64,000 nt of DNA from Micromonospora vinacea (GTDB lineage Bacteria; Actinomycetota; Actinomycetes; Mycobacteriales; Micromonosporaceae), in contig NZ_JADOTY010000001.1 in NCBI RefSeq assembly GCF_015751785.1, positions 7,254,001 through 7,318,000 on the forward strand. Reading direction: 5' to 3'. Shown here one piece after another: positions 10,827 through 61,256 of this stretch. Both the position numbers and the translations under genes were made by a program. A model generated the notes under the pieces. That model was not told the DNA's origin, did not search any database, and saw only the letters and a program-made list of their open reading frames with translations. How positions within the stretch are numbered: the first letter of the stretch is position 1; the number at the start of each line of letters is the position of its first letter.

Positions 10827-10927
10827 GGCGGTAGCGTCGAACATCCGGCCGCCGGTGGGCAATGGTTCGGCAGATCATTCTGTGAGTCGGGTTGGTTTCC
10901 GTGTTCGGTTCGGGTGAGGATGGCGCA

Positions 10928-15106: not shown

Positions 15107-15178
15107 GACACGCAACATCGATGATTGTCGCTTGCCGTGGGTCTTGCCTCCGCGATCCCTGCCTGATCAACTCGTCCG

Positions 15179-15192
15179 GGTGAGCGCTCACC
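15179..15192. promoter_or_regulatory. Perfect 14-bp palindrome over the decarboxylase ribosome site
   Basis: GGTGAGCGCTCACC is perfectly palindromic, with the GAGCGCTC core seen in many actinobacterial sugar-repressor operators. It lies immediately before ATG 15195 and includes the likely GGTGAG ribosome site, so a bound repressor or an RNA hairpin would block expression of the decarboxylase. Confidence 0.45.
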
Positions 15193-15194
15193 AC

Positions 15195-16619
15195 ATGGAC
15201 CCCGCCGAATTCCGTCGCGCCGGTCACGCCGTCGTCGACTGGATCGCCGACTACTGGGCGACAGTGGAGCAACGACCTGTCGCCCCGGCCGACCCCCCGG
15301 GCACGGTGGCCGCCGCACTGCCCAGTGAGCCGCCCACCACCGGCGGCGAACCGGTCGAGGCGATCCTCGCCGACCTGGACTCGATCGTCGTGCCGGGGCT
15401 GACCCACTGGCAGCACCCGGGCTTCTACGGCTACTTCCCCGGCAACACCTCCGGCCCGAGCGTGCTCGGCGACCTGGTCAGCTCCGGGCTCGGAGTCCAG
15501 GGGATGCTCTGGGCCTCCAGCCCGGCCTGCACCGAGGTGGAGACGGTGATGATGGACTGGCTGGCCCACCTGCTGGACCTGCCACAGCGGTTCCGCTCCA
15601 CAGGCACCGGTGGTGGAGTCATCCAGGACTCGGCCTCCTCGGCGACGCTGGTGGCCACCCTGGCCGCGCTGCACCGGGCCAGCGGCGGCCGCTGGCGGCA
15701 CACCGGCATCGACCGGCGCTACCGCGCCTACACCTCCCTCCACGGGCACTCGTCCATCGAAAAGGCGGTACGGATCGCCGGGCTGGGCAGCGACGGAATC
15801 CGGTCGATCGCTGTGGACCCGGACACCCAGGCGATGCTGCCAGGCGCGCTGCGGGCCGCCATCGAGGCCGACCTGGCCACCGGTGACGTGCCGGCCGTCG
15901 TGGTGGCGACCATCGGCACCACCTCCACCACCGCAGTCGACCCGCTGCCCGAGATCGGGGCCATCTGCGCCGAACACGGGATCTGGCTGCACGTGGACGC
16001 CGCGTACGCGGGCGCCGCCGCCGTCTGCCCCGAACTGCGGTGGACGCACGCCGGCCTGGAGTACGCCGACTCCTACTGCTTCGACCCGCACAAGTGGTTG
16101 CTCACCGGCTTCGACTGCGACGCGTTCTGGGTGGCCGACCGCGCCGAACTGATCGAGGCGCTGACCGTACTGCCGGAGTTCCTGCGCAACGCGGCCTCCG
16201 AATCCGGTGCGGTGATCGACTACCGGGACTGGCAGGTGCCGCTGGGCCGGCGGTTCCGGTCCCTCAAACTGTGGTTCGTGCTGCGCTGGTACGGCGCCGA
16301 AGGGCTGCGGGCGCACATCCGCTCCGGGGTGGCACTGGCCGAACGCTTCGCCGAGCGGGTCCGCGCCGACGACCGGTTCGAGTTGGCCGCGGCGCACCCG
16401 TTCTCACTGGTCTGCTTCCGACTACGCGCCGACGACGACACCAACGCGGCATTGCTGGCCTCGGCGAACGCCACCGGGCGGGTACACCTGACGCACACCC
16501 GCGTCGCCGGCCGCTACACGCTGCGGCTGGCGGTCGGCTCACCCCGGACCGCCGAAGCGCACATCGACGAAGCCTGGACCCTGCTCTCCGAAGCGGCCAA
16601 CACCCTGCTCACTCCCTAA
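15195..16619 (+). CDS. PLP-dependent decarboxylase (aromatic-L-amino-acid / tyrosine decarboxylase family)
   Basis: Group II amino acid decarboxylase of 474 residues from ATG 15195; GTG 15180 is an alternative upstream start. The PLP lysine is Lys300 in FDPHKWLLT, the ring-stacking and phosphate residues lie in the usual HVDAAYAG (Asp268 binds the pyridine nitrogen) and SLHGHSSIEKA. The N-terminus FRRAGHAVVDWIADY and the substrate segment HPGFYGYFPGNTSGPSVLGD match aromatic amino acid decarboxylases of plants, animals and actinomycetes. It would convert Tyr, Trp, Phe or Dopa to amines; the exact substrate cannot be fixed. No partner transporter lies next to it. Confidence 0.92.
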   Translation: MDPAEFRRAGHAVVDWIADYWATVEQRPVAPADPPGTVAAALPSEPPTTGGEPVEAILADLDSIVVPGLTHWQHPGFYGYFPGNTSGPSVLGDLVSSGLGVQGMLWASSPACTEVETVMMDWLAHLLDLPQRFRSTGTGGGVIQDSASSATLVATLAALHRASGGRWRHTGIDRRYRAYTSLHGHSSIEKAVRIAGLGSDGIRSIAVDPDTQAMLPGALRAAIEADLATGDVPAVVVATIGTTSTTAVDPLPEIGAICAEHGIWLHVDAAYAGAAAVCPELRWTHAGLEYADSYCFDPHKWLLTGFDCDAFWVADRAELIEALTVLPEFLRNAASESGAVIDYRDWQVPLGRRFRSLKLWFVLRWYGAEGLRAHIRSGVALAERFAERVRADDRFELAAAHPFSLVCFRLRADDDTNAALLASANATGRVHLTHTRVAGRYTLRLAVGSPRTAEAHIDEAWTLLSEAANTLLTP

Positions 16620-16639: not shown

Positions 16640-16723
16640 CGCGCCACGCGCCACGCGCCACGCGCCCCGCGCCCCGCGCCCCGCGCCCCGCGCCCCGCGC
16701 CCCGCGCCCCGCGCCCCGCGCCA
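16640..16723. repeat. Twelve-copy 7-bp tandem repeat (CGCGCC plus A or C)
   Basis: CGCGCC occurs twelve times with strict 7-base spacing; the seventh base is A after the first three copies, then C, and A again at the end. It sits in the gap between convergent genes, is not coding, and is the sort of array expected to vary in copy number. Confidence 0.9.
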
Positions 16724-33712: not shown

Positions 33713-33750
33713 TGATGCCTGTGAGTCATCAAGATGACTCACAGGCATCA
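33713..33750. repeat. 38-bp palindrome, copy 1
   Basis: TGATGCCTGTGAGTCATC is followed by AA and its exact complement, giving 18-bp perfect arms. A copy differing at one base lies at 60263-60300. It lies 57 bases after the SEC-C gene stop and before the DDN-like gene. Confidence 0.95.
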
Positions 33751-59657: not shown

Positions 59658-60188
59658 ATGAGCGCGCTCACCTGGGCGGTCGCCGCGGTCGTCACCGACG
59701 ACACCGGGCGGGTGCTGCTCTGCCAGCAGGGCCGGGGTGCGCGCCGCTACGCGTTGCCCGGCGGACGGCTGCGCCCGGCCGAGGGCCCGGTGCGGGCTGC
59801 CCTACGGGACATCCGGGCGGAGACCGGCTGGGACATCGAGCTGATCGACCTGGTCGGCGTCTACCAGCTGACCGGCCCTCCCAGGGAGGCCGCGGCCGGA
59901 CGCGCCGGGCCACTGCCCGACGTCCTCGTGCACGTGTTCCGGGCCCGCGCGGCGGGGATCCGACCCGCCACGGACCCACCGCCGGGTTGCCGGTTGTCCT
60001 GGCACTTCCCCGAGGCGCTGCCCGAGGTGGTCACCCCACTCACCCGGGCCGCCGTCACCGACGCGACCGCCGGCCGCTCCGGCGTGCTCCGCGACGTCGG
60101 CTGCGCGCCAGGAACCGTCGCCTCCGCGCCGCTGCCGGCGGCCCGCCCAGCCGAGGACGGCCGTCCGGCACGGTCCCTGCACCCCTGA
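59658..60188 (+). CDS. Nudix-like hydrolase with an imperfect Nudix box
   Basis: Protein of 176 residues from ATG 59658. The N-terminus LTWAVAAVVTDDTGRVLLCQQGRGARRYALPGG is typical. The Nudix box reads GRLRPAE-GPVRAAL-RDIRAETGW: the leading Gly and Glu and the final Glu-x-Gly are kept, but the RE pair is RD and the first Glu of the EE pair is Ala. Metal binding may therefore be weak. The C-terminal 40 residues are Ala/Pro/Arg-rich without clear fold. Divergent from lgt. Substrate unknown. Confidence 0.85.
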   Translation: MSALTWAVAAVVTDDTGRVLLCQQGRGARRYALPGGRLRPAEGPVRAALRDIRAETGWDIELIDLVGVYQLTGPPREAAAGRAGPLPDVLVHVFRARAAGIRPATDPPPGCRLSWHFPEALPEVVTPLTRAAVTDATAGRSGVLRDVGCAPGTVASAPLPAARPAEDGRPARSLHP

Positions 60189-60262
60189 CAAGCCGCAACC
60201 GTTCCGAGGTTCGCCGCGTGGTCGCGGACAGCCTCGCCTGCCAGGCCACATTCGATTGAGCG

Positions 60263-60300
60263 TGATGCCTGTGAGTCATCAATATGACTCACAGGCATCA
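60263..60300. repeat. 38-bp palindrome, copy 2
   Basis: TGATGCCTGTGAGTCAT, CAAT and the exact complement. It differs from copy 1 (33713-33750) only in the centre. It lies 74 bases after the Nudix gene and before the 15-bp tandem array at the end of trpA. Confidence 0.95.
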
Positions 60301-60355
60301 GGCTCAACAGACAAGACATGCCCCCGCGCTGCGCGGTCCGGCCGGACTCAGCTAG

Positions 60356-60455
60356 GGCCGGCTCAGTGAGGGCCGGCTCAGTGAGGGCCGGCTCAGTGAG
60401 GGCCGGCTCAGTGAGGGCCGGCTCAGTGAGGGCCGGCTCAGTGAGGGCCGGCTCA
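60356..60455. repeat. Seven-copy 15-bp tandem repeat carrying the trpA stop codon
   Basis: GGCCGGCTCA recurs seven times at exact 15-base intervals with GTGAG between (the last is followed by GCGGG). On the minus strand each unit reads TGAGCCGGCCCTCAC. The trpA stop is the TGA of the first unit met, and because 15 is divisible by three, the following units give further in-frame TGA codons. Each unit also contains the palindrome GCCGGC. Confidence 0.95.
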
Positions 60456-61256
60456 GCGGGTGGGGTTGCGGACGCCCTCGGCGAGTTCGGCGCTGAGGGT
60501 GCGCAGTGCGGCCAGCCCGTCGGCCTCGGTGGGCGCGTCCAGCACACACCGGACCAGCGCGCTACCCACGATCACACCGTCGGCGTAACCGGCGACGGTG
60601 CCGGCCTGCGCGCCGGTGCCCACCCCCAGGCCGACACCGATCGGCAGGTCGGTGACCGCGCGGGCCCGGGAGACCAGCGTCGGGGCGGCGTCGGAGGTAC
60701 GCGCCCGGGCGCCGGTCACCCCCATCACGGCGGTCGCGTAGACGAAGCCACGGCAGTGCCGCACCGTCATCGCCAGCCGGGCGTCGGTGGACGACGGCGA
60801 GACCAGGAACGTGCGGTCCAGCCCGTGCGCGTCCGAGGCGGCCAGCCACTCGTCGGCCTCGTCCGGGATGAGGTCCGGAGTGATCAGGCCGGTGCCGCCG
60901 GCGGAGGCGAGGTCACGGGCGAAGACGTCCACGCCGTAGCGCTCGACCGGGTTCCAGTAGGTCATGGTGACCACCGGAGCGCCCGTCGCCGCCACCGCCT
61001 CGATGATGCGCATCGTGTCCGCGGTGCGTACGCCCCCGGCCAGCGCGATGTCACTGGCCCGCTGGATCACCGGCCCGTCCATCACCGGGTCGGAGTAGGG
61101 GATCTCCACCTCGATGACGTCGACGCCGGCCTCGACCATGGCGGTCATCGCGGCGATGCTGCCCTCGACGGTGGGGAAACCAGCCGGCATGCAGCCGACC
61201 AGCAGTGCCCGTCCGTCGGCGCGGGCCTTGTCGAAGGCCACCCCGATCCGGCTCAT
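60453..61256 (-). CDS. trpA: Tryptophan synthase alpha subunit
   Basis: Subunit of 267 residues that cleaves indole-3-glycerol phosphate to indole and glyceraldehyde 3-phosphate. The catalytic acids are in VIEVEIPYSDPVMDGPVIQ (Glu, then Asp before GP). GCMPAGFPT, MTYWNPVERYG, GLITPDLIPDEA, FLVSPSSTDARL and IGVGLGVGTGAQAGTVAGYADGVIVGSALV complete the barrel. ATG 61256 is one base after the trpB stop (TGAGATG), so translation is coupled. The stop codon lies in the 15-bp tandem array described separately. Confidence 0.97.
   Translation of the reverse strand: MSRIGVAFDKARADGRALLVGCMPAGFPTVEGSIAAMTAMVEAGVDVIEVEIPYSDPVMDGPVIQRASDIALAGGVRTADTMRIIEAVAATGAPVVTMTYWNPVERYGVDVFARDLASAGGTGLITPDLIPDEADEWLAASDAHGLDRTFLVSPSSTDARLAMTVRHCRGFVYATAVMGVTGARARTSDAAPTLVSRARAVTDLPIGVGLGVGTGAQAGTVAGYADGVIVGSALVRCVLDAPTEADGLAALRTLSAELAEGVRNPTR

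Follow-up and report, generated by a model that had tools for sequence, protein, structure and literature searches.

A tandem 15-bp array at the trpA stop codon of Micromonospora vinacea, probably a young, species-private minisatellite

The tandem array of 15-bp units that begins at the stop codon of trpA in Micromonospora vinacea is a true, ordinary minisatellite. It is best read, with a probability of roughly 87%, as a young and species-private one, the product of recent and near-neutral slippage or recombination; slippage as the mutational step, the recent date, and the near-neutrality of the expansion are what we infer. The array lies in a stretch of 64,000 nucleotides (contig NZ_JADOTY010000001.1, positions 7,254,001 to 7,318,000), which is referred to here as the window and to which the coordinates below refer unless stated otherwise.

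The trpA gene, encoding the tryptophan synthase alpha chain (positions 60453 to 61256; TIGR00262, E = 2.9e-59), is located on the minus strand, as is trpB (TIGR00263), and faces a convergent gene on the plus strand (59658 to 60188). The latter is designated Nudix-like, as its Nudix matches are weak (best E = 2.4e-4) and far below the curated cut-offs. Read on the minus strand, the array consists of six perfect tandem copies of TGAGCCGGCCCTCAC (60366 to 60455), a seventh unit, TGAGCCGGCCCTAGC, with two mismatches (60351 to 60365), and a degenerate eighth unit, TGAGTCCGGCCGGAC (60336 to 60350), into which TRF carries the array as far as 60340. The tandem array described in the first-pass annotation therefore stands; its seven units are six perfect ones plus an imperfect one, with the degenerate eighth in addition, and its borders are slightly shifted. 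The TRF call (60340 to 60456, period 15, 7.7 copies, 97% matches) has a score of 211, the highest of all 31 TRF rows of the window, and as the maximum score across 100 windows simulated with a second-order Markov model was 92 (median of maxima, 56), the array is beyond chance. The first unit opens with the trpA stop codon (60453 to 60455). Since the unit begins at the stop and its period is divisible by three, the later TGAs are in the trpA frame, with seven following the true stop within 105 nt when the two imperfect units are included. The earlier observation that every copy offers a further in-frame TGA was thus confirmed. It had also been suggested that a unit length that is a multiple of three shields the protein from changes in copy number; this was not upheld, as translation already terminates at the array's opening TGA, making unit length irrelevant to TrpA. 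A 228-amino-acid open reading frame (59861 to 60547) overlaps both the trpA end and the convergent gene, and in it the array is read as TEPAL repeats.

The comparison set comprised one genome per species, 160 for the genus, and every one of them gave a TrpA match. The doubled unit (up to three mismatches over 30 nt) was found in only one of the 160, that of M. vinacea itself, where all six positions are at the trpA locus and nowhere else. With a single locus in its own genome, the array was ruled out as a dispersed genomic element. No exact 28-nt match to the array was present in a collection of genome contigs, which may omit the M. vinacea genome, and the available extracts of the literature on intergenic tandem repeats in Micromonospora yielded nothing on this array. 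Three close species (G007, G090, and G066) have, among the matches listed, a TrpA that is 100% identical (rounded), and at the DNA level they share 97% identity across the 2,973 bp upstream of the array; the unit pair, again with up to three mismatches allowed, is absent from all three. In G007, trpA is followed by TGAGCCCGGCCCGCGCTGAGC, in which the direct repeat TGAGC occurs twice, 16 nt apart, and the unit is unexpanded; this genome holds another array instead, with a 17-bp unit, between 19 and 76 nt past the stop. The first-pass annotation had proposed that absence of the array from closely related strains with normal trpA ends would point to chance slippage, and at the species level this is what was found.

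For wider comparison, trpA tails were fetched from 140 of the 159 congeners, giving 141 with that of M. vinacea; the tails at L072 and L132 are short, and that at L022 contains N. Of the 19 congeners left out, 10 were not among the TrpA matches listed and nine were listed (in three of these, trpA is near a contig end). A TGA-type direct repeat at the stop, loosely similar to that of G007, was present in 7 of the 141 tails, including that of M. vinacea, indicating that the seed is neither unique to the expanded lineage nor general.

The interval 3' of trpA is hypervariable and repeat-prone in general. Arrays with a TRF score of at least 50 within 200 nt of the trpA stop were identified in 40 of the 141 tails, with units ranging from 5 to 45 bp, although some of these may lie in the next gene, as arrays up to 200 nt past the stop were allowed. 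The M. vinacea array ranks second by score among the tails (211, versus 276 at L131). A period divisible by three is expected for about one period in three, and this is the rate that was observed, both across the tail arrays (12 of 40) and across those starting no more than 35 nt ahead of the stop or 20 nt past it (6 of 17, counted by us from the array listing); a frame-preserving period was accordingly rejected. Strong arrays are also fairly common in M. vinacea itself. A 464-kb sample of its genome (the window and 20 further 20-kb stretches, equal to 6.3% of the genome, with genes delimited crudely by ORF and GC3) contained 20 arrays scoring at least 80 and five scoring at least 200, the trpA array being counted in both. 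The sample includes two arrays with 7-bp units, a length that bears no frame relation: 11.9 copies of CGCGCCC at 16640 to 16722, located 21 nt past the stop of an ORF at 15132 to 16619, and 11.3 copies of CCCCGCA at positions 10870 to 10948 of L165, 13 nt past a stop codon. In one congener (G123, locus L041), the trpA stop opens an array of roughly four 15-bp units (TGAACCGCCGGGTCC); this array arose independently of that in M. vinacea, and because of one inserted base, its later TGAs do not lie in the trpA frame. In another (G065, locus L117), an almost exact duplication of 45 bp (2.1 copies, 97% matches) spans the last codons and the stop of trpA.

As to how the array arose, a short direct repeat (TGAGC...TGAGC, 15 to 16 nt apart) would have begun at the trpA stop by happenstance, and replication slippage or unequal recombination may then have multiplied the 15-bp unit to about eight copies. 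Six identical proximal copies followed by degenerate distal ones fit a recent expansion. Of the origins named in the first-pass annotation, replication slippage is therefore the one favored here, on the grounds of an array private to a single genome, identical gene-proximal copies, and a proto-repeat in a relative. Against a neutral reading, the unit edge falls within one base of the stop codon, and the second stop-anchored 15-bp array, in G123, gives a mild hint that something favors this register. Bacterial minisatellites, or VNTR loci, are of the kind used in MLVA typing. The trpA array resembles them in its head-to-tail, identical or near-identical units within the range of about 10 to 60 bp, in its intergenic position, in being perfect at one end and degenerate at the other, and in its presence in one lineage and absence from near relatives. 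As the comparison covered one genome per species, it is a candidate for a locus that varies in copy number between strains. The array is a possible marker for strain typing.

Other explanations were weighed against this minisatellite reading. According to one, raised in the first-pass annotation, the extra in-frame TGAs catch ribosomes reading through the trpA stop, and the array is kept by selection as a fail-safe. The seven in-frame TGAs within 105 nt compare with none to three in the other 140 tails, and TGA is named as the leakiest primary stop in passages of PMC6764699, but the trpA tails of relatives make selection of this kind highly improbable. A further in-frame stop within 105 nt was missing from 101 of the 141 tails, two of which are short. 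The counts of stops in frames 0, 1, and 2 were 2, 7, and 3 within 18 nt and 10, 11, and 10 within 30 nt across 139 congener tails; across 138, they were 27, 28, and 43 within 60 nt and 60, 66, and 69 within 105 nt. No enrichment of in-frame stops over the other frames was found at any of these four lengths, and the smallest chi-square P value, 0.086, belonged to an excess out of frame. The chance rate of periods divisible by three and the out-of-frame TGAs of the other stop-anchored array, in G123, likewise speak against a fail-safe, and one extra stop would presumably do, with seven adding little. This lack of an in-frame excess agrees with Ho and Hurst (2019; PMC6764699), in passages of which selection for additional stop codons in eubacteria is described as being without compelling evidence. 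Additional or tandem stop codons are also treated, for yeasts, in passages of PMC1088959. The array shares with the systems of both papers, as excerpted, the presence of in-frame stop triplets past the true stop; it differs in that its TGAs were made by repeat expansion and in that relatives show no in-frame enrichment. The case invites caution, as even a striking array of in-frame stops proved to be weak evidence of selection after relatives were compared.

The array might instead act as a terminator or as a stabilizer of the mRNA 3' end, its self-complementary unit (UGAG...CUCA, GCCGGC) forming a long rod that copy number could tune. The array RNA has a minimum free energy of -63.4 kcal/mol (z = -3.8), with none of 200 dinucleotide shuffles as stable, and hairpin clusters that follow stop codons are proposed as intrinsic terminators in passages of PMC8355165. 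However, among 400 seven-unit arrays in which the unit was shuffled without a change in composition, 17% were at least as stable as the real one, suggesting that repetition of such a GC-rich unit may largely account for the stability; the real unit is on the stable side (-50.8 kcal/mol for seven units, versus a mean of -39.1 for shuffled units). In addition, the array is confined to a single genome of the genus, neither a hairpin with a U-tract in the array nor a U-tract terminator elsewhere was found between 59600 and 61300, and a covarying hairpin suited to such a function starts 28 nt past the array and occurs behind trpA in other species. The variable terminator proposed in the first-pass annotation was therefore unsupported, and a structural role of the array is considered unlikely. 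Another conceivable reading, and a very unlikely one, is that a repeat nursery behind trpA, with stop-anchored arrays of at least two origins (M. vinacea and G123), constitutes a slippage-driven contingency locus in the 3' untranslated region, in which copy number tunes the 3' structure of trpA mRNA or read-through between trpA and the convergent gene. Lastly, tandem repeats are a general source of assembly errors, and the copy number could be such an artefact. This is scarcely credible here, as the array, at about 120 bp, should be spannable by ordinary reads, the genome is a single 7.34-Mb contig, and the degenerate distal units anchor one side of the array.

Beyond the array lies a near-perfect palindrome (60256 to 60307; type GAGCGTGATGCCTGTGAGTCAT / ATGACTCACAGGCATCACGCTC), with 24-nt arms that are 96% complementary and a 4-nt loop, which is more likely than the array to be functional at the end of this trpA gene. 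It is situated between the convergent ends of trpA and the Nudix-like gene and likely serves both as a two-way terminator. The whole 251-nt 3' region of trpA, including the palindrome, folds at -134.3 kcal/mol (z = -5.2). Palindromic 3' hairpins lacking a U-tract have been proposed as terminators in actinobacteria. The palindrome resembles these in its position between convergent ends, its lack of a U-tract, and its both-sided stem changes, and the likeness holds for the palindrome, as a putative terminator, and not for the 15-bp array. A search of the available literature for palindromic transcription terminators in Micromonospora found no paper. The array was also rejected as a known RNA family: the region gave six matches below gathering scores, all to miRNA families (best E = 0.02). 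Five of these cover the palindrome and one falls within trpA, and all were taken as chance.

Using a loose motif, the palindrome was identified behind trpA in 25 of the 141 tails, and 24 of the 25 form at least 16 of the 24 pairs. Its distance from the trpA stop ranges from tens to hundreds of bases with the stem kept, and several positions have changed on both sides, e.g., T-A and G-C at pairs 10 and 16. The motif was missing within 450 nt in 114 of the 139 tails of at least 300 nt (one of which, L022, contains N). The palindrome is thus by no means universal, and even close relatives such as G007 can lack it. The core occurs well beyond trpA. With up to two mismatches allowed, it was found in 62 of the 160 genomes of the genus, at 1 to 17 sites each; single sites may be due to chance, as the reversed core gave one site each in three genomes (G002, G090, and G149). 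In M. vinacea, the core (up to three mismatches) has 17 sites and the reversed control pattern has none. A gene 3' end lies within 170 nt at 13 of the 15 loci that were fetched of these 17, as judged by us from crude gene calls, with L156 and L160 being the exceptions and the gene end at L150 being that of the Nudix-like gene. The dispersed palindromes are probably a terminator family, and the array has led to this covarying family, which is more likely than the array itself to supply the genuine 3' signal of trpA. The long exact palindrome was found solely in contigs named Micromonospora (16 of 16 stretches), and a second copy is present within the window, with its core at 33718 to 33745.
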